A DNA stretch of 64,000 nt. Source: Pseudoflavonifractor sp. An184 (lineage in GTDB: Bacteria > Bacillota > Clostridia > Oscillospirales > Oscillospiraceae). The notes beneath the pieces are model-generated. The model was not told the origin of the DNA. It ran no database searches and saw only the letters and a list, made by a program, of their open reading frames with translations. Every line of letters starts with the position of its first letter. Position 1 is the stretch's first letter. Shown piece by piece: positions 49,678 through 61,815 of this stretch. The stretch spans positions 1 through 64,000 of the forward strand of contig NZ_NFKI01000003.1 in the NCBI RefSeq assembly GCF_002160305.1. Reading direction: 5' to 3'. The position numbers and the translations under genes are program-made.

Positions 49678-49717
49678 GCGGTCTCCCGACAAACACAGTT
49701 CGGGGGACCGCATTTTT
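49678..49717 (+). terminator. hairpin terminator/attenuator before the recombinase
   Basis: GCGGTCTCCCGA (49678-49689) pairs with TTCGGGGGACCGC (49699-49711), followed by ATTTTT. It lies between the 49-residue ORF and the recombinase ribosome-binding site, so it could attenuate recombinase expression. Confidence 0.7.
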
Positions 49718-49733
49718 GATAGGAGCGTTGACC

Positions 49734-51290
49734 ATGTCCAAAGCCGCAATCTACTGCCGTCTATCTGAGGAGGACCGGAACAAGGCTTCCGCCGAGGACG
49801 ACAGCGTGAGTATTCAAAACCAAAAGTCCATGCTCCTGCAATATGCCATGCAGCAGGGCTGGGAAGTATTTCACATTTACAGCGACGATGACTACACAGG
49901 TTCTGACCGAAACCGCCCGGAGTTTCGCCGCCTCTTAGCGGATGCTCAGGCACATAAATTTGATATCATCCTCTGCAAAACTCAGTCCCGCTTTACCCGT
50001 GAGCTGGAACTGGTAGAAAAATACATACACGGTCTTTTCCCGCTGTGGGGAATCCGTTTCGTCAGCATTGTGGACAACGCGGACACCGACAACAAGGGGA
50101 ACAAAAAATCCCGCCAGATCAATGGTCTGGTAAACGAATGGTATCTGGAGGACATGTCCGACAATATTCGCAGCGTCCTCACCAATCGCCGGGAACAGGG
50201 CTTTCATATTGGCGCTTTCGTCCTCTATGGATATCAGAAGGACCCGGCTCAGAAGGGCCATCTGATTATTGACCCAGAGGCCGCCGCAGTCGTGTGCCGG
50301 GTCTTTACCTTGTTTTCACAAGGATATGGAAAAACGGCCATCGCCCGAATTCTGAATGAGGATGGGATCCCCAATCCCACTGAGTATAAGCGCCGGAAAG
50401 GATTGCGGTACCAATCTCCCCCTGGAAAAACAGGAACGCTGTGGAAATATCCTGCCATCTCCCACATGCTGACCAATGAGATCTACATCGGCAACATGGT
50501 CCAGGGGCGATATGGCAGTGTATCTTATAAAAGCAAACAGAACAAGCCCCGTCCCAAAGATCAGTGGATTCGGGTCGAACATACTCACGAGGCAATCATC
50601 GGCCAGGAGCTATGGGAACGGGTCCAAGCATTGATACAAGAAAAGTCAAAGCCCTTTACAGGCGGTTCGATTGGGCTCTTTGCCAAAAAGGTGCGCTGCG
50701 CCAATTGCGGATACACCATGCGCTCCACGAAAAACCGCGGGCGGCACTATCTCCAGTGCTCCAACCGGCGCGTTTCAAAAGATGCCTGTACCGGCGCATT
50801 TATTTCCGTGGAAAAGCTGGAACGCATCGTGGTCCAGGAGCTGAACCGGCTCTCCGCGCAGTATTTGGATCAAGATGAGCTGGAACGAAACCTGAATTTT
50901 TCCGGTTCTCTCCAGGCTCAGAAACGGAAAACGCTGGATCAGCGCTCCAAATATCAGACACAGCAGGAGGAGTTTCAAACGGGCCTGCGAGAGCTCTATC
51001 TGGATAAGGTACGGGGAATTCTGTCCGAAGCGGATTTTCTCAGTCTCTCCCAGGACTTCTCCAAGGAAAAGGAGCTGCTCGAGGAAAAAATCGCGGAAAC
51101 TAACCGGCGGCTGGAGGAACTGGACGTCCGGATTGCCGCCGGGGACAACCGACGGGAACTGGTCCAGCGTTACGCCAATCTGGAGCACCTGACCCGTGAA
51201 ATGGTGGAGGCCCTCATTGACTATATTCTAGTGTGGAAACGCCGGCCTGGGGAGAGTGATCCGCCGGTTGAAATACATTGGAATTTTTAG
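49734..51290 (+). CDS. large serine recombinase
   Basis: A 518-residue site-specific recombinase. The resolvase catalytic domain (about 1-150) has the serine in AIYCRLSEED, then the LKYxxR-like block and FRRLLADAQAHKFDIILCKTQSRFTRE. The recombinase domain (HIGAFVLYGY ... ARILNEDGIPNP) and a zinc ribbon (CANCGYTMRSTKNRGRHYLQC) follow, then a coiled-coil (about 395-480). Relatives move integrative elements and Tn4451-type transposons. AGGAG lies 8 nt before the ATG. It is the only mobility gene in the island. Confidence 0.95.
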   Translation: MSKAAIYCRLSEEDRNKASAEDDSVSIQNQKSMLLQYAMQQGWEVFHIYSDDDYTGSDRNRPEFRRLLADAQAHKFDIILCKTQSRFTRELELVEKYIHGLFPLWGIRFVSIVDNADTDNKGNKKSRQINGLVNEWYLEDMSDNIRSVLTNRREQGFHIGAFVLYGYQKDPAQKGHLIIDPEAAAVVCRVFTLFSQGYGKTAIARILNEDGIPNPTEYKRRKGLRYQSPPGKTGTLWKYPAISHMLTNEIYIGNMVQGRYGSVSYKSKQNKPRPKDQWIRVEHTHEAIIGQELWERVQALIQEKSKPFTGGSIGLFAKKVRCANCGYTMRSTKNRGRHYLQCSNRRVSKDACTGAFISVEKLERIVVQELNRLSAQYLDQDELERNLNFSGSLQAQKRKTLDQRSKYQTQQEEFQTGLRELYLDKVRGILSEADFLSLSQDFSKEKELLEEKIAETNRRLEELDVRIAAGDNRRELVQRYANLEHLTREMVEALIDYILVWKRRPGESDPPVEIHWNF

Positions 51291-51306
51291 GATCATGCTG
51301 TATACT
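51278..51306 (+). promoter_or_regulatory. candidate promoter of the cas operon
   Basis: TTGGAA (51278-51283), exactly 17 bp, TATACT (51301-51306). It overlaps the 3' end of the recombinase gene and directly abuts the terminator hairpin; predicted initiation near 51313. Confidence 0.5.
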
Positions 51307-51346
51307 GGTGAAAGGAAGATCAATCTTTCCTTTCACCAACTTTTTT
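51306..51346 (+). terminator. terminator after the recombinase
   Basis: TGGTGAAAGGAAGA (51306-51319) pairs with 51324-51338 (one bulged T), followed by a run of six T (51341-51346). It separates recombinase transcripts from cas3. Confidence 0.8.
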
Positions 51347-51364
51347 GAGGGGGCTTTGATCCAT

Positions 51365-53503
51365 ATGGAATCGTATCTGGCGCATATAACGGTAGATGGC
51401 AGAAAACAGACCGTTCTTCAGCATCTGGAGTCCACTGCCTGGCGATGCAGCACGTCTGCGCGTGCGTTCTGTGCCGCAGACCAGGGAGAGCTGGCTGGCC
51501 TGTCCCACGACTTAGGAAAGTATTCCAATGAGTTTCAAAATCGGCTTCTGCAACACGGCCCGAGGGTAGACCACGCTACCGCCGGGGCCTTTGAATGCTT
51601 TCGCTTGGGACAGCCCTATGCGGCGTTCGCAGTAGCCGGACATCACAGCGGTCTCCCTGATGGCGGAAGTCAAACGGACGCTCCGGATTCCAGTTCCTTT
51701 TTTGGCCGCATGAACCGTGCCCTTCAGGGCAGGCTGCCGGAGTATACCGTCTGGCAGTCCGAACTCACCCTGCCTGCTCCTCCTCTGCCAAACACTTTGG
51801 AGCCGCAGCTGGAGGGGATGTTCTTCACCCGTATGCTCTTCTCTTGTCTGGTGGACGCAGACTACTCCGATACAGCGGAATTTATGGCCAGCCGCCCCGG
51901 CACGGTATGCCCCAGCACATCCATGGATTCTTTGATGGCGCGGCTTCAGAACTACATCTCCGGATGGTTTCCGCCCAAAGGGGAACTGAATGCCCAGCGG
52001 TGCTCCATTCTAGCGCGTTGCATCCAGGAGGGAGAGCGGCAGACACCGGGCCTCTTTGCTCTGACCGTCCCTACCGGCGGAGGCAAGACCGTGGCCTCTC
52101 TGGCCTTTGCTCTGGCCCAAGCCAAAGCCCAGGGACTTTCTCGTATAATCTATGTGATCCCTTACACCTCCATCATTGAGCAGACCGCTCAAAAATTCCG
52201 CGAGATCCTGGGGGAGGACTGTGTTCTGGAGCACCACTCCGGCGTACTCTATGACATGGATCAGGAAGCCACTCCTGAATCCTCCCGCCTGGCTCGTGCC
52301 ACCGAGACCTGGGACATGCCGGTGATCGTGACCACAGCGGTGCAATTTTTTGAATCTCTCTTCTCCTGCCGTCCCTCTCAGTGCCGGAAACTCCACAATA
52401 TCGCCCAAAGCGTCATTGTATTTGACGAGGCACAGATGCTGCCTCTCCCCTACCTGCGCCCCTGCGTCTGGGCCATTGCCCAATTGGTCAAACACTACCG
52501 GGCCTCCGCGGTTCTGTGCACCGCCACTCAGCCGGCACTGGTCCCCATTTTCCGGGAATTTGCTCCGGAGCTTCCGGTCACAGAGCTCTGCCCACCGGAG
52601 CAATTCCGGTGGGATGTATTCCGGCGCGTGACCTTCCGGCAAGCGGGGCGGATAACCTATGAGGAACTTGCCGCGCAGCTTCAGGAGCAGGATCAGGTCC
52701 TGTGCGTTGTTAACTCCCGAAAATCAGCCCAGGAGATCTTTCTGCGGCTGGAGGGCGAGGGATGTTTCCATCTCTCCACCCTCATGTATCCCGCTCACCG
52801 CCGGGCTCAGTTGGAAGAGATCCGCTACCGGCTGGATAAGAGGCTTCCCTGCCGGGTGGTGTCCACCTCCCTGATTGAGGCCGGCGTGGATGTGGATTTC
52901 CCCGCCGTCTACCGGGAGGAGGCCGGACTGGATTCCATCCTCCAGGCCGCAGGACGGTGCAACCGGGAGGGGAAACGGCCTTTGGAAAACAGTATCGTCA
53001 CCGTATTCCGGGGCGAGGGGAACACACCTCCCCTCTTTGCCACTGCCATCGGAGCCGGCCGAGAGGCTATGGCCCGCTATGAGGACATCACCTCCCCGGA
53101 GGCCGTCCACACCTATTTTTCAAATCTTCTGGACTTGAAGGGAACAGAAGCCCAGGACGCGCAGCACATTCTCCCTCTGATGCAGTCTGAACTGTTTCCC
53201 TTCCGCACGGTGTCCGAGCGGTTTCATTTGATCGACAGCCCCACCGTCACCATTTACATTCCAAAAGAAAAGGGTGCCGAACTGATCGAGCGCCTGCGGA
53301 GCGGAGAACGTAGCCGAGACCTGTACCGCCGCCTGGGACAGTACGGAGTCTCCGTTTACGAGCAGCACTTCAACACACTGGACCAGGCCGGAGATCTGGA
53401 GCGGCTGGAGGACGGCTCGGTCATCCTCTCCAACCTGGACCTCTATTCCGAGGATACCGGTTTGAGTTTAAAGGCGGACAGCGGGAAAGGATTGTTTATT
53501 TAA
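51365..53503 (+). CDS. cas3: type I-C Cas3 helicase-nuclease
   Basis: A 712-residue Cas3. The N-terminal HD nuclease has LSHDLGKYSNEF (HD about 48-49), DHATAG and AGHHSG. The SF2 helicase follows: Walker A VPTGGGKTVASLAFALA, DExx box VFDEAQMLP, CTATQPAL and the C-terminal VSTSLIEAGVDVDFP and AAGRCNREGKR motifs. Cas3 is recruited by target-bound Cascade to unwind and degrade DNA. The start at 51365 puts the family N-terminus (ESYLAHITVDGRKQTVLQH) in frame; a TTG 9 nt upstream is possible. First gene of the I-C operon. Confidence 0.97.
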   Translation: MESYLAHITVDGRKQTVLQHLESTAWRCSTSARAFCAADQGELAGLSHDLGKYSNEFQNRLLQHGPRVDHATAGAFECFRLGQPYAAFAVAGHHSGLPDGGSQTDAPDSSSFFGRMNRALQGRLPEYTVWQSELTLPAPPLPNTLEPQLEGMFFTRMLFSCLVDADYSDTAEFMASRPGTVCPSTSMDSLMARLQNYISGWFPPKGELNAQRCSILARCIQEGERQTPGLFALTVPTGGGKTVASLAFALAQAKAQGLSRIIYVIPYTSIIEQTAQKFREILGEDCVLEHHSGVLYDMDQEATPESSRLARATETWDMPVIVTTAVQFFESLFSCRPSQCRKLHNIAQSVIVFDEAQMLPLPYLRPCVWAIAQLVKHYRASAVLCTATQPALVPIFREFAPELPVTELCPPEQFRWDVFRRVTFRQAGRITYEELAAQLQEQDQVLCVVNSRKSAQEIFLRLEGEGCFHLSTLMYPAHRRAQLEEIRYRLDKRLPCRVVSTSLIEAGVDVDFPAVYREEAGLDSILQAAGRCNREGKRPLENSIVTVFRGEGNTPPLFATAIGAGREAMARYEDITSPEAVHTYFSNLLDLKGTEAQDAQHILPLMQSELFPFRTVSERFHLIDSPTVTIYIPKEKGAELIERLRSGERSRDLYRRLGQYGVSVYEQHFNTLDQAGDLERLEDGSVILSNLDLYSEDTGLSLKADSGKGLFI

Positions 53504-53520: not shown

Positions 53521-53570
53521 TTCTCTGCGCTATATTCAGCATTTTATCTAGCAGAAAGAAGGAAATGCCA

Positions 53571-54233
53571 ATGATCCAATTGGAAGTCTGGGGAGACTAT
53601 GCGCTCTTCACTCGTCCAGAGATGAAGGTTGAGCGGGTCAGCTACGACGTGATGACCCCCTCCGCCGCCCGGGGACTGATCGAGGCTATCTACTGGCACC
53701 CAGGGCTGCGGTGGGTCATCGACCAAATCCATGTGTGCGCCCCCATCCGTTTCACCAACCTGCGGCGCAACGAAGTAAAATCCAAAATCCCAGCCCGGAC
53801 GGCACGCACCGTCATGGAAAAGGGGGAGGGACAGCTGTATCTGTGCACCTCGGACGACATCCAGCAGCGGGCCGCCCTGCTGCTGAGGGACGTACGCTAT
53901 GTGATCGAGGCCCATTTTGAGATGACAGACCAGGCCGCTCAGGGGGACAACCCCGGAAAGTTTCAGGATATTGTGAAGCGCCGGATCAAGCGGGGGCAGT
54001 TCTACCATCAGCCCTGCTTCGGCTGCCGGGAATTTCCCGCCCAATTCCGGTGGTGTGAGGAGCTCCCCCCCTGCCCCGATGAGCTGAAGGACAGGACCCA
54101 AGACCTGGGCTGGATGCTCTACGACATGGACTATACCGACCCGGAAAATATTCGGCCCCTATTCTTCCGGGGCTCCCTCCAAAACGGAGTTCTGAACGTC
54201 CCGGACCGGAACAGCGGGGAGGTGCGGGGATGA
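53571..54233 (+). CDS. cas5c: type I-C Cas5 (Cas5d), pre-crRNA endonuclease
   Basis: A 220-residue RAMP protein. In I-C systems, which lack Cas6, Cas5 cuts pre-crRNA and holds the 5' handle in Cascade. Family features are LEVWGDYALFTRPEMKVERVSYDVMTPSAARGLIEAIYW at the N-terminus, PIRFTNLRRNEVKSK and REFPAQFRW. The ATG at 53571 has AAGGAA 6 nt upstream; 53565 is also possible. Its stop overlaps the cas8 start by 4 nt. Confidence 0.96.
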   Translation: MIQLEVWGDYALFTRPEMKVERVSYDVMTPSAARGLIEAIYWHPGLRWVIDQIHVCAPIRFTNLRRNEVKSKIPARTARTVMEKGEGQLYLCTSDDIQQRAALLLRDVRYVIEAHFEMTDQAAQGDNPGKFQDIVKRRIKRGQFYHQPCFGCREFPAQFRWCEELPPCPDELKDRTQDLGWMLYDMDYTDPENIRPLFFRGSLQNGVLNVPDRNSGEVRG

Positions 54234-56005
54234 TTCTTCAGGCGCTGACCGAGTATTACCAGGCTCTGGAGCAGGGAGGAAAGATTGCCGCACCAGGCTG
54301 GAGCCCTGTAAAAGTCTCCTATGCCCTCTGTCTGGCAATGAACGGGACGTTGGAGCGCGTCGACTTTATGCAAACAGAACAGCCCAAGGGGAAAAAGATA
54401 GTCCTTGCACCCCAGAGTATTTCCCTCCCTGCTCCGGTCAAACGAACCGTGGGCGTGGCGGCTAACTTTCTGTGTGACAACTCCAGCTATTTTTTAGGGA
54501 TCGACAACAAGGGCAAGCCCCAGCGAACATTGGAATGTTTCTCCGCCTGCAAGGCGCTTCACGAGAAACTGCTGGAGCATGTGGATTCTCCAGCGGCCCA
54601 GGCGGTCTTGGCATTTTTTCGCACCTGGGAACCCAAAAAGGCATGGGAACATCCGGCCCTCCAAGAGCATTTGGATGGTATTCTCTCCGGCGGAAATCTC
54701 ATTTTCCGTACAGCGGAAGGTTTCGTCCATAGCGATCCCGCAATCCGTCAGACGTGGGAAACTTATTATAACTCCGCCGGAGACGGCCCCCAGGGCCTCT
54801 GCCTTGTCACCGGCGAGGTGGGCCCCATCGAAAATATCCATCCCTCCATCAAAAACGTGGCAGGCGCCCAATCCAGCGGCGCGGCTCTGGTATCCTTCAA
54901 CGCCCCGGCATTCTGTTCCTATGGCAAGGAACAGAATTTGAATGCTCCCACCGGAAAATTTGCCGCCTTCGCCTATACCACTGCCCTGAACCACCTGTTG
55001 TCCGACCGGGACCACGTGTTCCGCATCGGAGACGCCACTGTGGTCTGCTGGGCCAGAAACGCGAAACCGGCCTACGCCGCCCTGTTTGGAGGGGCTGCCT
55101 TCGGCGCCGCCGTCCCCTCCTACACGGAAAACGACCTGCGTGGAATGGTAAAAAGCCTCTGCGCCGGACAGCCGGTGACCTATGAGGCGGACAAGCTGGA
55201 CCCCGGCATGGACTTCTATGTCCTGGGCCTCTCCCCCAACGCCGCCCGGCTTTCGGTGCGGTTCTTCCTGCATAACACGTTTGGCGGCTTTCTGCGCAAC
55301 ATCCAGGCCCACTACGACCGGTTGGAGATCGTCCGGCCCGCTTATGACAAGTTCGAGACTCTCCCTCTTTGGAAGCTGCTCAGCGAGACGGTCAATCAGA
55401 ACTCCAGAGACAAATCCCCCGCCCCCGATCTGGCCGGCGAGGTCCTGCGGGCCGTCCTGATGAACACCCGCTATCCCGCCACGCTGCTCAACGGCGTGAC
55501 TTTACGCATCCGGGCGGAGCGGGAGATCACCCGAGGGAGAGCGGCTGTTTTAAAAGCCTATTATCGGAAGCTGCAGGAGACAATCAAACGAGAAAATCCC
55601 GACATACCGGAGGAGGTCTTACAAGTGTCTCTCAATCCTAATACGAACAATATTCCATACACGCTGGGACGGCTCTTCTCCGTCCTGGAGGCAATTCAGG
55701 AGTCCGCCAATCCAGGCGTCAACGCTACCATCAAAGATAAATATTTCAATTCTGCGGCCGCCACTCCGGCTGTCATCTTTCCGGTGCTGACCAATCTGGC
55801 GCAGAAGCATTTGAAAAAGCTGAGCAGTTCTAATCGTGGACTTTCTATTTCCTATGAGAAACAGCTCACAGAATTGTTTTCCAAATTTGATGGAACAGAG
55901 TATCCCGCCCGGATGAATCTGCCCCAGCAGGGCTCGTTCCAGCTTGGTTACTACCACCAGACCCAGGCCCGTTATCAGAAAAAGGAGGAAAAAGAACATG
56001 TCTGA
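54230..56005 (+). CDS. cas8c: type I-C Cas8c (Csd1) large subunit
   Basis: A 591-residue Csd1, the Cascade large subunit that reads the PAM and helps recruit Cas3. Recognisable blocks are MILQALTEYYQAL at the N-terminus, CLVTGEVGPIENIHPSIKNVAGAQSSGAALVSFN, and the C-terminal YTLGRLFSVLEAIQ and LNPNTNNI. Coupled to cas5 by a 4-nt overlap and to cas7 by 8 nt. Confidence 0.96.
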   Translation: MILQALTEYYQALEQGGKIAAPGWSPVKVSYALCLAMNGTLERVDFMQTEQPKGKKIVLAPQSISLPAPVKRTVGVAANFLCDNSSYFLGIDNKGKPQRTLECFSACKALHEKLLEHVDSPAAQAVLAFFRTWEPKKAWEHPALQEHLDGILSGGNLIFRTAEGFVHSDPAIRQTWETYYNSAGDGPQGLCLVTGEVGPIENIHPSIKNVAGAQSSGAALVSFNAPAFCSYGKEQNLNAPTGKFAAFAYTTALNHLLSDRDHVFRIGDATVVCWARNAKPAYAALFGGAAFGAAVPSYTENDLRGMVKSLCAGQPVTYEADKLDPGMDFYVLGLSPNAARLSVRFFLHNTFGGFLRNIQAHYDRLEIVRPAYDKFETLPLWKLLSETVNQNSRDKSPAPDLAGEVLRAVLMNTRYPATLLNGVTLRIRAEREITRGRAAVLKAYYRKLQETIKRENPDIPEEVLQVSLNPNTNNIPYTLGRLFSVLEAIQESANPGVNATIKDKYFNSAAATPAVIFPVLTNLAQKHLKKLSSSNRGLSISYEKQLTELFSKFDGTEYPARMNLPQQGSFQLGYYHQTQARYQKKEEKEHV

Positions 56006-56894
56006 TCCCATCAAAAACCGCTATGAATTCGTGATTTTGTTCGACGTGGAAAACGGCAATCCCAACGGGGACCCGGACGCGGGCAATATGCCCCGAGTGG
56101 ACCCGGAGACCGGTCTTGGCATTGTCACCGACGTGTGTCTGAAGCGGAAGATCCGCAACTATGTGGAGACCGTGAAGGAGGACAGCACCGGCTACCGCAT
56201 CTATGTTAAAGACGGCGTGCCCCTGAACCGCAGCGATGCTGAGGCTTACGCTGCTCTGGACGTGGATGAGAAATCGGTCAAGGAGAAGAAAAAAAGCGAT
56301 CCAGACCTGGATCGAAAAATCCGGGACTGGATGTGTGCCAACTTCTACGATATCCGCACCTTCGGCGCGGTTATGACCACCTTCGTGAAAGCGGCCCTGA
56401 ACTGCGGTCAGGTGCGTGGTCCGGTACAGCTGGGATTTGCCCGCAGCGTGGAGCCCATCGTTCCTCAGGAAGTCACCATTACGCGTGTGGCCATCACAAC
56501 TGAGGCAGACGCGGAAAAGAAGGGAACAGAAATGGGACGCAAGTATATCGTCCCCTATGGTCTCTACCGTTGTGAAGGGTATATCTCCGCCAATCTGGCC
56601 CGAAAGACCACCGGTTTTTCCGAAGAGGACCTGTCCCTTCTGTGGGAAGCTATTTTGAACATGTTTGAACACGACCACTCCGCCGCCCGTGGGAAAATGG
56701 CTGTCCGAGACCTGATCGTATTCAAGCATGACAGCGAGCTGGGCAATGCCCCTGCCTGGAAACTGTTCGAGGCGGTCCATGTGGATCGAAAGGATTCAGA
56801 TGTTACTGCTCCGGCACGCTCCTATCAGGACTATATCGTGTCAGTGGACGAGTCCGCTCTGCCTTCCGGCGTCACATGTGTGCAGATGGGGTGA
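55998..56894 (+). CDS. cas7c: type I-C Cas7 (Csd2) backbone subunit
   Basis: A 298-residue Cas7 that polymerises along the crRNA. Family motifs are NRYEFVILFDVENGNPNGDPDAGNMPRVDPETGLGIVTDVCLKRKIRNYV, RTFGAVMTT and GPVQLGFARSVEPI. The ATG at 55998 lies 9 nt after AAAGGAGG. Confidence 0.97.
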   Translation: MSDPIKNRYEFVILFDVENGNPNGDPDAGNMPRVDPETGLGIVTDVCLKRKIRNYVETVKEDSTGYRIYVKDGVPLNRSDAEAYAALDVDEKSVKEKKKSDPDLDRKIRDWMCANFYDIRTFGAVMTTFVKAALNCGQVRGPVQLGFARSVEPIVPQEVTITRVAITTEADAEKKGTEMGRKYIVPYGLYRCEGYISANLARKTTGFSEEDLSLLWEAILNMFEHDHSAARGKMAVRDLIVFKHDSELGNAPAWKLFEAVHVDRKDSDVTAPARSYQDYIVSVDESALPSGVTCVQMG

Positions 56895-57553
56895 CCTACT
56901 GTGAGGAGGACCTCCTCCCTCTCTCCGGCCTTCAGCATTTTGCTTTCTGCCGCCGCCAGTGGGCTCTGATTCATCTAGAGCAGCAGTGGCAGGAAAACCT
57001 GCGCACCGTAGAGGGAACGCTGCTCCATCAGCGGGCTCACGACGCCTCCCTCCGAGAGCGCCGGGGTGATCTGCTGATCCTCCGCGGTCTCTCCGTCGTC
57101 TCCCACACCTTGGGTCTGTCCGGTCAGTGCGACGTAGTGGAGTTTCATGCCTCGCCGGAGGGCATCCCGCTCCATGGGGAGGAGGGCCTCTGGCTTCCCT
57201 TCCCCGTGGAGTATAAACGCGGCCGTCCCAAAGCTCACCAGGCGGACGAACTCCAGCTTTGCGCCCAGGCCATGTGCCTGGAGGAGATGCTCTGCTGTTC
57301 TATCCCTGAGGGGGCACTCTTTTATGGAGAGCCGCGGCGGCGCACACCGGTCGCCTTTTCACCAGAACTGCGGGAGCGTGTCCGGTCTTACTCAGACGAG
57401 ATGCACCAGTTTTACCGCCGGGGGCATACGCCGAAAGCAAAGCCCAGCAAGTCCTGTAACGCCTGCTCTTTAAAGGACCTTTGCCTGCCCCAGTTGACCC
57501 GGCGAGGCTCTGTGTCCAACTATCTGAAGAAGGCCATGGAGGAGTTGATATGA
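56876..57553 (+). CDS. cas4: Cas4 RecB-like iron-sulfur nuclease
   Basis: A 225-residue Cas4 that trims prespacers and selects PAM-proper ends for Cas1-Cas2. An N-terminal cysteine (FCRRQWALI) and a C-terminal trio (SCNACSLKDLC) should bind a [4Fe-4S] cluster. The RecB nuclease core has GQCDVVEF and VEYKRGRP. It overlaps cas7 by 19 nt; the exact start (ATG 56876 or the GTG slightly downstream) is uncertain. Confidence 0.93.
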   Translation: MCADGVTYCEEDLLPLSGLQHFAFCRRQWALIHLEQQWQENLRTVEGTLLHQRAHDASLRERRGDLLILRGLSVVSHTLGLSGQCDVVEFHASPEGIPLHGEEGLWLPFPVEYKRGRPKAHQADELQLCAQAMCLEEMLCCSIPEGALFYGEPRRRTPVAFSPELRERVRSYSDEMHQFYRRGHTPKAKPSKSCNACSLKDLCLPQLTRRGSVSNYLKKAMEELI

Positions 57554-58581
57554 AACATCTGTTGAACACCCTCTTTGTCACCAGTGAGGATATCTACCTC
57601 TCCTTGGACGGGGAAAATGTGGTCGCAAACCGGGAACGGCAGGAAATCGCCCGATACCCTCTCCACACATTGGACGGGATCATATCGTTTTCCTATCCCG
57701 GGGCCTCCCCTGCTCTGATGGGCGCCTGCGCAAAGCGGGATATCTCTCTGGCGTTTTGTACCCCCCGAGGCCGTTTTTTGGCCCGTGTTACCGGGGCAAG
57801 CTCTGGGAACGTATTGCTTCGCCGTACTCAGTACCGAATTGCAGATGATCCAGGGCCGTGTTGCCGTATCGCCCGTAATATGATTTTGGGGAAGATATAT
57901 AATGCCCGCTGGAGCATTGAGCGGACCCGGCGCGACCATGGGCTTCGGTTGGATGCGGACCGTTTTTCCTCTGTTTCTTCTAAGATGAAAGTGCTTCTTC
58001 CACAAGTTGCGGAAGAAGCCTCTTTAGACAATTTACGCGGATTAGAAGGTGCAGGAGCCACACTTTATTTCAGTGTGTTTGACCAGATGATTTTAGGCGA
58101 AAAGCCTCTCTTTCAGTTTTCCGGTCGGAACCGCCGCCCACCTCAGGACCCAATCAACGCGCTCCTCTCCTTTGCTTATAGCCTGCTGACCCACGACTGT
58201 GCCTCCGCTCTGGAGAGTGTGGGCCTGGATTCCTATGTAGGCTTTCTCCACCGTGACCGCCCCGGACGCACCTCTCTGGCATTAGATCTCATGGAAGAAC
58301 TACGTCCCTGTATGGCGGACCGGTTCGTCCTGACGCTCGTCAATAACCGTGTCGTGGGCAACTCAGACTTTGATATTCGAGAAAATGGTGCTGTCTTTCT
58401 AAATGACACGGGCCGCCGGACTTTTTTGAAGCATTGGCAGACTCGAAAACAAGAGATACTGACCCATCCATATTTGCATGAAAAACTTCCCTGGGGATTG
58501 GTTCCCTATATTCAAGCGCTTCTTCTGGCACGCTGTCTCCGAGGAGATCTGGATTCCTATCCGCCTTTTTTGTGGAAGTGA
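57550..58581 (+). CDS. cas1: Cas1 integrase, subtype I-C
   Basis: A 343-residue Cas1 that integrates spacers. N-terminal beta domain (HLLNTLFVTSEDIYLSLDGENVVA), then the helical catalytic domain with LRGLEGAGATLYFSVFD (metal-binding Glu), NALLSFAYSLLTHDCASALESVGLDSYVGFLHRDRPGRTSLALDLMEELRP (His/Asp/Glu ligands). Overlaps the cas4 stop by 4 nt. Confidence 0.97.
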   Translation: MKHLLNTLFVTSEDIYLSLDGENVVANRERQEIARYPLHTLDGIISFSYPGASPALMGACAKRDISLAFCTPRGRFLARVTGASSGNVLLRRTQYRIADDPGPCCRIARNMILGKIYNARWSIERTRRDHGLRLDADRFSSVSSKMKVLLPQVAEEASLDNLRGLEGAGATLYFSVFDQMILGEKPLFQFSGRNRRPPQDPINALLSFAYSLLTHDCASALESVGLDSYVGFLHRDRPGRTSLALDLMEELRPCMADRFVLTLVNNRVVGNSDFDIRENGAVFLNDTGRRTFLKHWQTRKQEILTHPYLHEKLPWGLVPYIQALLLARCLRGDLDSYPPFLWK

Positions 58582-58590
58582 GGTTCTGGA

Positions 58591-58881
58591 ATGCTGGTCT
58601 TGATTACCTATGATGTCAACACGGAAGATTCCGCTGGGCGGAAACGGCTGCGGCAGATCGCCAAGCAATGTGTAAACTACGGGCAGCGGGTCCAAAATTC
58701 TGTTTTTGAATGTCTACTGGACTCGGCCCAGTGTAAATTGCTCCAGGCAAAGCTATGTGCGATCATGGACCCGGAAAAGGACAGCCTTCGGTTTTATTAC
58801 TTAGGGAAACGCTATGAAAATAAAATCGAACACTTCGGCCGTAAACAGACGTACCTGCCAGAGGAACCTATGATTCTTTAA
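58591..58881 (+). CDS. cas2: Cas2, subtype I-C
   Basis: A 96-residue ferredoxin-fold protein that dimerises as the core of the Cas1-Cas2 integrase. LITYDVNTEDSAGRKRLRQIAK and VQNSVFECLLD are family blocks. It starts 9 nt after cas1 and is the last gene before the leader. Confidence 0.97.
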   Translation: MLVLITYDVNTEDSAGRKRLRQIAKQCVNYGQRVQNSVFECLLDSAQCKLLQAKLCAIMDPEKDSLRFYYLGKRYENKIEHFGRKQTYLPEEPMIL

Positions 58882-59064
58882 CTGTGCGAATAGGAAGCGC
58901 ACACTGATTTCTTACTCGGTTCGCACTTGAAAAGCAGGATAAACATACCTGTCTTTATTAAAAATCCCATTTTGTGATTATTTTTATTTTGATTTTATAA
59001 GTATCTTTTTTAAAAATTAGAAAATCTATCCAAAATGGCCCGCAGCATTTTGGATATATTTGCA
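58882..59064 (+). promoter_or_regulatory. AT-rich CRISPR leader
   Basis: The 183-bp region between cas2 and the first repeat is strikingly AT-rich in a GC-rich genome. It contains a GTGCGAA...TTCGCAC inverted pair just after cas2 (about 58884-58927), a candidate promoter TTGTGA-18-TATAAG (58972-59001) and a perfect 10-bp inverted repeat ATCCAAAATG/CATTTTGGAT (59028-59037 and 59046-59055) ending 9 nt before repeat 1. Orientation (repeat 3' end ATTGAAAT) agrees with transcription away from cas2. Confidence 0.85.
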
Positions 59065-61815
59065 GTCGCTCCCCTCACGGGGAGCGTGGATTGAAATCCG
59101 GCACCTCCCAAAATCCGTCACCACACCATCTGAGTCGCTCCCCTCACGGGGAGCGTGGATTGAAATCATCAGCGGCGATGTGGGCGACGGTGGATATCTG
59201 TGTCGCTCCCCTCACGGGGAGCGTGGATTGAAATCCAGCTTACGAGGATACCTCTGTCTCCGCCCGAGTCGCTCCCCTCACGGGGAGCGTGGATTGAAAT
59301 ATCAATGCTTGGCCAAAATGGAAAGCTCAACCCGGTCGCTCCCCTCACGGGGAGCGTGGATTGAAATTTTTTTAGCAACTGACAGGATGGCATTGTTGGC
59401 GGGTCGCTCCCCTCACGGGGAGCGTGGATTGAAATATTTGTTGGGCAGGTGATTTTCGTGCAGGAGTGGAGTCGCTCCCCTCACGGGGAGCGTGGATTGA
59501 AATCGGATGATACAGCTCCGCCGGAGCTGATAGAAGGTCGCTCCCCTCACGGGGAGCGTGGATTGAAATTTCCGACGGCGGGGAAACTTGACAGGGGGGT
59601 AAATGTCGCTCCCCTCACGGGGAGCGTGGATTGAAATTCAATCAAAGATCAACCTCAGTTGATGACACGAAGTCGCTCCCCTCACGGGGAGCGTGGATTG
59701 AAATAGAGCCACCCGGAAACCAGTACCGTACCACGGCCGCGTCGCTCCCCTCACGGGGAGCGTGGATTGAAATACTTTGATGAGCCGTCGTCCTGGTATT
59801 GGTCGTCAGGTCGCTCCCCTCACGGGGAGCGTGGATTGAAATACGACCAGTGGCCTGGCATTCTGCATCCCGCCCGAGGTCGCTCCCCTCACGGGGAGCG
59901 TGGATTGAAATCCAGCTTACGAGGATACCTCTGTCTCCGCCCGAGGTCGCTCCCCTCACGGGGAGCGTGGATTGAAATAGGATGACGGAACCATGGACTA
60001 TGCCCAGACTGGTCGCTCCCCTCACGGGGAGCGTGGATTGAAATAACGCCAACATTGTTATCGCCGACGAGATGCATACGTCGCTCCCCTCACGGGGAGC
60101 GTGGATTGAAATACCTAGATACCCCCTTATCACCCCGTCGTTGTCCGTCGCTCCCCTCACGGGGAGCGTGGATTGAAATTGCGTGGAGATAGTACAGGGT
60201 CCCTCGCTTGGCACGTCGCTCCCCTCACGGGGAGCGTGGATTGAAATTGCACTTTTTTCCCGGCACAAAGCACAAAGCACCCGTCGCTCCCCTCACGGGG
60301 AGCGTGGATTGAAATTGGGGCAGCCGGAAGGCCCTGGCGGCCCGCTTAGTCGCTCCCCTCACGGGGAGCGTGGATTGAAATGGAAAGTCAACCCAGGGGG
60401 CCGGGCCCAAGAGAGGCGTCGCTCCCCTCACGGGGAGCGTGGATTGAAATCGGTGGGGGCCAGCAGGGCGGCCTCCACCCCTCTCCGGAGTCGCTCCCCT
60501 CACGGGGAGCGTGGATTGAAATAGGCTGTGCAGCGTCTTGCTGGGGGAGAGGCAGTCGGTCGCTCCCCTCACGGGGAGCGTGGATTGAAATTCAATACCG
60601 GCGAGCAGCTGCGCCCAGTACGACGTCGCTCCCCTCACGGGGAGCGTGGATTGAAATGCATATCCGAGAGGCCGCAGCGCGGCCGGGTCGGGTCGCTCCC
60701 CTCACGGGGAGCGTGGATTGAAATCAGATCCATGGTGTAGCCGCCGCCCACCGTGTGGGGTCGCTCCCCTCACGGGGAGCGTGGATTGAAATGTAGAGCT
60801 GGTACGCCATGGCATAGACCATGGTCGTCGGTCGCTCCCCTCACGGGGAGCGTGGATTGAAATGGAGTCGAATCCGGGCGAATGACGCCCCGCCGCGGGT
60901 CGCTCCCCTCACGGGGAGCGTGGATTGAAATGGGCCGGGGGTGGGCCCTTCGGGCCCCCCGGGGCGTCGCTCCCCTCACGGGGAGCGTGGATTGAAATGG
61001 CGGCCCCGGCTGCGGCTCGCTCGCGCCGGGCGTCGCTCCCCTCACGGGGAGCGTGGATTGAAATCCGCCCGGTGCTGCATCACCTGGGCGGGATTTTGTC
61101 GCTCCCCTCACGGGGAGCGTGGATTGAAATTGCCCCAGCACGCGGTGGAGAAGTCGGTGACCCTGTCGCTCCCCTCACGGGGAGCGTGGATTGAAATGAT
61201 AAGAGTCTGGACGACTTGGAGCAGGGGCTGAAGGTCGCTCCCCTCACGGGGAGCGTGGATTGAAATAATCTCATAGGGCTGGAACACAGCATCTCCATTG
61301 GGTCGCTCCCCTCACGGGGAGCGTGGATTGAAATGGATTGTCAACCCAGGGGGCCGGGCCCAAGAGAGGCGTCGCTCCCCTCACGGGGAGCGTGGATTGA
61401 AATGACTGAAAACATGCAGCAAGCAGGTAACACTGAGGCATCGTCGCTCCCCTCACGGGGAGCGTGGATTGAAATCGTCCACCACAAAGGACCGGGACAC
61501 CCAGGCGGCGGTCGCTCCCCTCACGGGGAGCGTGGATTGAAATCTCCGTCTCCCGCCAGCCCGGGGGGCGGCGGCTGGTCGCTCCCCTCACGGGGAGCGT
61601 GGATTGAAATCGGTGGCGGGGGAGGTGAGCGTCACATGAGGCCGCTGGTCGCTCCCCTCACGGGGAGCGTGGATTGAAATAGGACGCGGTTGCGTGAATT
61701 GCGCGAAAATGCAGGGTCGCTCCCCTCACGGGGAGCGTGGATTGAAATGACGCTGCACCCCTATTCTGTTTTCCGCCGTACTGTCGCTCCCCTCACGGGG
61801 AGCGTGGATTGAAAT
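59065..61815 (+). CRISPR. type I-C CRISPR array, 41 repeats and 40 spacers
   Basis: The repeat is 33 bp, beginning GTCGCTCCCC, with a CTCCCC-TCAC-GGGGAG stem and ending GGATTGAAAT. I located 41 copies: the first at 59065-59097, the last at 61783-61815. All appear identical, including the leader-distal one. Spacers are about 33-38 nt. Spacer 3 (59235-59267) and spacer 13 (59912-59945) have the same sequence, with one extra base in the latter. Spacers 20 (60382-60417) and 34 (61335-61370) differ only at positions 4-5. No spacer was seen to match this window. Confidence 0.99.

Follow-up and report, generated by a model that had tools for sequence, protein, structure and literature searches.

The window analysed here, a stretch of 64,000 nucleotides from Pseudoflavonifractor sp. 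An184, holds on its forward (+) strand a complete type I-C set in the order cas3-cas5c-cas8c-cas7c-cas4-cas1c-cas2, with 7/7 genes above the curated cut-offs. The set consists of cas3 (51278..53503; TIGR01587, TIGR01596), cas5c (53565..54233; TIGR01876), cas8c (csd1; 54230..56005; TIGR01863), cas7c (csd2; 55944..56894; TIGR02589), cas4 (56876..57553; TIGR00372), cas1c (57481..58581; TIGR03640) and cas2 (58591..58881; TIGR01573). For cas7c and cas1c the coordinates are those of the longest open reading frame, and translation may start further inside. A large serine recombinase, which resembles cassette recombinases and scores below their curated cut-offs, is encoded immediately upstream of cas3 (49716-51290). 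Because it adjoins cas3, the cas genes may be situated at the border of a mobile element.

Behind cas2 follows an AT-rich stretch (58882..59064, + strand), a predicted leader by its position and composition, and then the type I-C array (59065..61815, + strand) with 41 identical 33-nt repeats and 40 spacers. No copy of the repeat with up to 3 mismatches was detected outside the array in the 3.59-Mb draft genome (162 contigs), and the same repeat type also adjoins cas1c in related genomes.

Repeated spacers in the window array

Spacers 20 (60382..60417, + strand) and 34 (61335..61370, + strand) are both 36 nt long and identical at 34/36 positions (0.94). The sole differences are at positions 4-5, where spacer 20 carries AA (GGAAAG) and spacer 34 carries TT (GGATTG). 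The sequence-only reading that first pointed to this pair had described it in the same terms, and the description was exact on recheck. In shuffled spacer sets (n=200) the identity of the top pair never exceeded 0.64, and the similarity of spacers 20 and 34 is not due to chance. Both begin at the same PAM-side end. Their neighbours, 19/33 and 21/35, are unrelated, and therefore the pair is not a block copy. The seed of type I-C is given as positions 1-5, 7 and 8 (PMC5071653), so that the difference is confined to seed positions, as had been proposed from the letters.

A second duplicate, which that reading did not mention, is formed by spacers 3 (59235..59267, + strand, 33 nt) and 13 (59912..59945, + strand, 34 nt). 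The two are identical over 33 nt, and spacer 13 is one base longer at the PAM-distal end. They represent a second re-acquisition in the window array, with lengths of 33 and 34.

Repeat degeneration at the old, leader-distal end is the usual pattern in CRISPR arrays. Mismatches to the consensus were counted in 114 surveyed arrays of 12 or more repeats; the means are 0.11 for the first two repeats and 1.54 for the distal two. Since the distal repeats are the degenerate ones across these arrays, spacer 34 should be the older and spacer 20 the younger of the pair; for the window itself this order is carried over from the surveyed arrays, as its own repeats are all identical. The view that the leader-proximal spacer is younger fits this decay and also the leader side of the window array, where cas2 ends at 58881 and the AT-rich stretch reaches to 59064 before the repeats begin.

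Copying and re-acquisition in type I-C arrays

Type I-C arrays were collected beside cas1c genes (TIGR03640), giving a total of 171 arrays and 5,550 spacers with the window included. The family sample (300 genomes) contributed 56/58 places over the cut-off, the order sample (394 genomes) 60/62 new places and the class sample (392 genomes) 40/42 new places. A further 155 genomes contributed 20/33 places, where the 13 left out were mostly arrays cut by contig ends or already included, and the array loci of the genus were added. The parser required at least 4 I-C-like repeats in a run. Duplicate and near-duplicate pairs within an array were defined by gapless alignment with at most 6 mismatches, and a duplicate whose neighbours are duplicated in step was counted as a block copy. 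From the length counts, 3 of the 59 block pairs were dropped because their repeat flanks were not clean, and so was 1/79 isolated pairs, which was of equal length.

The isolated exact duplicates have the PAM-side end in common in 75/78 cases and are of unequal length in 41/78, whereas the block duplicates with clean repeat flanks are never of unequal length (0/56). Without the flank filter one of the 59 block pairs differs in length; in this pair (spacers 2/4 of array L014) the repeat boundary is shifted by one base, and the difference is taken for a parsing effect. None of the 59 block pairs contains a mismatch. These pairs go back to 14 events in 10 arrays, and for the mismatch contrast with the isolated pairs the true sample size is the 14 events and not the 59 pairs. 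The isolated pairs comprise 79 exact and 37 mismatched ones, the 37 including 3 redundant pairs.

Because the PAM-side end is nearly always shared and the length varies, and because block copies keep their length and carry no mismatch, isolated duplicates are mostly new acquisitions and not copies. It is also unlikely that mismatched isolated pairs are mutated copies, since block copies would then carry mismatches too. Two random spacers of one array are equally long with a chance of 0.33, as determined in the first survey set. From this and the 41 unequal pairs we estimate that roughly 61 of the 78 isolated exact pairs are separate acquisitions. At least one isolated exact duplicate or near-duplicate pair is present in 39/67 arrays with at least 30 spacers, and thus it is ordinary in the surveyed arrays that a protospacer already recorded is acquired again. 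The richest array, L102 (G066:C20:17187-33789), is a type I-C array of 179 spacers with ten isolated exact duplicates, 10/10 of unequal length, and is a rich case for the study of re-acquisition. It supplies 10 of the 41 unequal pairs; without it 31/68 remain.

Repeated spacers in arrays are also treated by SpacerPlacer, which names reacquisition as a class; its reported figures for 805 candidates are 695 duplications and 8 reacquisitions (PMC11472070). For isolated duplicates in the present clade the length criterion points the opposite way, although data sets and definitions differ. In Thermus, independent spacer acquisition is described from arrays of different type or from partial overlap (PMC6452258) and not, as here, from repeats within one array. 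The contrast in length (41/78 isolated against 0/56 block pairs) provides a test that works without the protospacer and is applicable to any large array collection. This by-product, the length criterion together with the frequency of re-acquisition it implies, is more interesting than the pair itself.

Origin of the spacer pair 20/34

Spacers 20 and 34 probably represent two acquisitions from variants of one element. Cas4-Cas1-Cas2 would have acquired the same protospacer twice, first as spacer 34 and later as spacer 20, cutting at the same PAM-side end in two variants of one invader, presumably a phage or plasmid, that differed at positions 4-5. Spacer 34 may have selected the variant through the seed mismatch before spacer 20 was acquired. 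That escape was the cause is plausible and unproven, with the chances about even, while the explanation as a whole, in which one invader supplied both variants in separate acquisitions, is likely. Spacers 3/13 (33 and 34 nt), a further re-acquired pair in the same array, argue for separate acquisition. The equal length of spacers 20 and 34 argues against it and favours copying by about 5:1, given an equal-length chance of 0.19 in the window array. Since the PAM-distal ends of the two are identical as well, the length difference that indicates re-acquisition is absent here; a differing PAM-distal end is an indicator and not a requirement, and 37/78 isolated exact pairs are also equally long.

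Escape is favoured by the position of both changes in the seed, with nothing altered elsewhere in the spacer, and by the absence of a codon pattern. On the other side, one seed change would be enough, and two adjacent changes are more than needed. The sequence-only reading had proposed re-acquisition from an escape variant of the same phage. Its first part is supported by the isolated I-C duplicates with their common PAM-side end and varied length, whereas the escape step is unproven, as the collections searched yielded no protospacer of either variant.

Neither variant was detected in IMG/VR, which was searched with a 22-nt core, a 16-nt core and a degenerate-codon form of one reading frame, nor in annotated phages and plasmids. 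The own genome contains no site with up to 3 mismatches beyond the two array copies, and 400 family genomes (own genome included) and 64 genus genomes yielded no protospacer outside the array. In the species-genome collection an 18-nt core gave two matches, which were rejected as chance because they carry 15 and 13 mismatches over TTC and the 34 shared positions. As a negative, the scan of viral sequences carries little weight: with an 18-nt piece of spacer 11 it returned 2 contigs only, which at 37.6 and 51.5 kb are too long to be microviruses, yet relatives of spacer 11 do sit in deposited microviruses.

The strongest alternative is that two related elements had drifted apart beforehand and that one spacer was taken from each at the same PAM, without any selection by spacer 34. 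It is nested inside the preferred explanation, with the same acquisition mechanism and a different driver, and their probabilities overlap. To compare mismatch positions, the 42 near-duplicate pairs were reduced by 5 with shifted ends and 3 redundant ones to 34. Mismatches in near-duplicate pairs are spaced in multiples of three in 57/117 comparisons against 36.6 expected (p=0.0002), and in the pooled pairs the value is p=0.00015. Such codon spacing reflects synonymous divergence of related phages, which thus accounts for much of the differences within pairs. In addition, exact re-acquisitions are commoner than mismatched ones (79 against 37), so that an escape variant is not required for a second acquisition. 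However, spacers 20 and 34 lack the codon pattern, with two adjacent changes and identity everywhere else, and both changes would fall into positions 1-5 by chance with a probability of 0.016 for two random changes or 0.11 for a random adjacent pair. Drift as the sole driver has distinctly less than an even chance for this pair.

A general enrichment of seed mismatches would speak for escape beyond this pair. In the 34 pooled pairs there is a modest excess at positions 1-5, with 22 mismatches against 13.8 expected (p=0.012); leaving out the window pair gives p=0.037. The set of positions 1-5, 7 and 8 has 26 against 19.3 (p=0.055), and over positions 1-8 the 27 mismatches against 22.1 expected are not significant (p=0.13). 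Among the pairs with at least two mismatches, 3/26 have them wholly in positions 1-5 against 0.17 expected (p=0.0006), namely spacers 5/82 of array L107, 41/47 of array L147 and 20/34 of the window; when single-mismatch pairs are included, these three seed-only pairs stand against 1.33 expected, which is not significant (p=0.14). The count of seed-only pairs is suggestive, as several position sets were tried and it was made after spacers 20/34 had been seen. No convincing phage match was obtained for the seed-only pairs of L107 and L147. In a fresh test the class-level set gave two usable pairs and the last family set one, all with single mismatches outside positions 1-8, and with so few pairs the seed excess was not replicated.

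Copying of one spacer-repeat unit within the array, followed by two substitutions, is unlikely. The equal length (36 and 36 nt) and the identical PAM-distal end would suit it, and duplications dominate the counts reported by SpacerPlacer (695/805 candidates; PMC11472070). However, block-copy pairs with a mismatch are absent from the survey (0/59 pairs, 14 events), and one unit moved by 14 places would need a block duplication plus a deletion. Moreover, with 41/41 repeats identical, both substitutions would have to lie in a single 36-nt spacer and none in any repeat. Still less probable is an origin of spacers 20 and 34 from two members of a sequence family repeated in a single genome. Like some repeated elements, the spacer has a high GC content and contains imperfect inverted repeats, but no copy with up to 3 mismatches exists outside the array in the own genome or in the 400 family and 64 genus genomes, and a multicopy family, named beforehand as one of the findings that would speak against re-acquisition, thus gains no support. 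An assembly artefact is hardly credible: the draft comprises 162 contigs and the two copies lie in 102-nt stretches that are 98% alike, but the flanking spacers are unique, the two bases differ cleanly and near-duplicate pairs occur in many other assemblies.

Two further ideas on the two differing bases were rejected. The repeat end (GGATTGAAAT) might have served as template for the GGATTG of spacer 34, but by inspection GGAAAG is also derivable from it at another shift (GAAA), so that this does not discriminate. Adenine-specific diversification of a phage gene, considered because spacer 20 has A at each of the two differing positions, leaves 8 other adenines unchanged and has nothing else in its favour.

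Separate acquisition with a possible escape step has a close precedent. In type I-C of Legionella pneumophila, spacer pairs are described in which the older spacer has a PAM or seed mismatch and the newer one matches, which the authors explain by escape followed by primed acquisition (PMC5071653). These are two pairs in strain Toronto-2005 directed against overlapping targets of the element LME-1, which the newer spacer fits perfectly (PMC5071653). In Legionella, unlike here, the target is known, and an experiment in a strain with type I-F systems examined whether protection was lost, whereas spacers 20 and 34 have exactly the same PAM-side end and gave no target in the collections searched. 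In Pseudomonas aeruginosa type I-C, phages escape by point mutations near the PAM, at +2 and +3, and the PAM is TTC; that was a laboratory experiment, which is not known to include a re-acquired spacer (PMC7913775). The scenario of escape and re-acquisition is therefore already published for type I-C (PMC5071653), and spacers 20/34 add another case.

Single pairs of this kind being known, the matter at stake is how frequent natural re-acquisition is and what role escape plays in it. For the I-C arrays of the order we tentatively propose, at slightly less than an even chance, that isolated repeats are mostly re-acquisitions at the same PAM and that a subset including 20/34 are dated escape events, each with an older spacer, a seed-mutated invader and a newer spacer. 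If this is true, spacer length separates re-acquisition from copying and the arrays form a record of escape that can be read without knowing the phage.

Targets and further features of the array

Spacers 3/13 and 12 gave no viral match, and 3/13 had no match outside the array in the 64 genus genomes. The adjacent spacers 12 and 13 have their last 9 bases in common (CCGCCCGAG; 59870-59878 and 59937-59945) and are otherwise unrelated; the longest common ending among other non-duplicate spacer pairs of the window array is 4 bases.

Four spacer targets were found, too few to fix the PAM of the window system. The PAM of type I-C is given as TTC (PMC7913775). Spacers 25 and 31 each have a target with 4 mismatches, preceded by TTC and TTCC, respectively. 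For spacer 11 (59774-59809) the matches are replication initiator genes of Microviridae from the gut, with 2-4 mismatches and TTT in front (PQ007338, MT135257, PP511355), a hint that this host is infected by a related microvirus. Spacer 21 (60451-60489) matches the host chromosome exactly over 39 nt; the site (G000:C97:82162-82200) lies in a putative nitroreductase gene (PF14512) and is flanked by TGG. In the genus, two genomes match this spacer with 1 mismatch and a third with 6 mismatches. No TTC lies directly beside the self-match, which may explain why it is tolerated.

Finally, human-gut records labelled 'Bacteriophage sp.' (hits H21-H26, e.g. MT838487) match the array, mostly in many repeat-like pieces. 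These records may be carriers of I-C-like arrays or mislabelled bacterial contigs.
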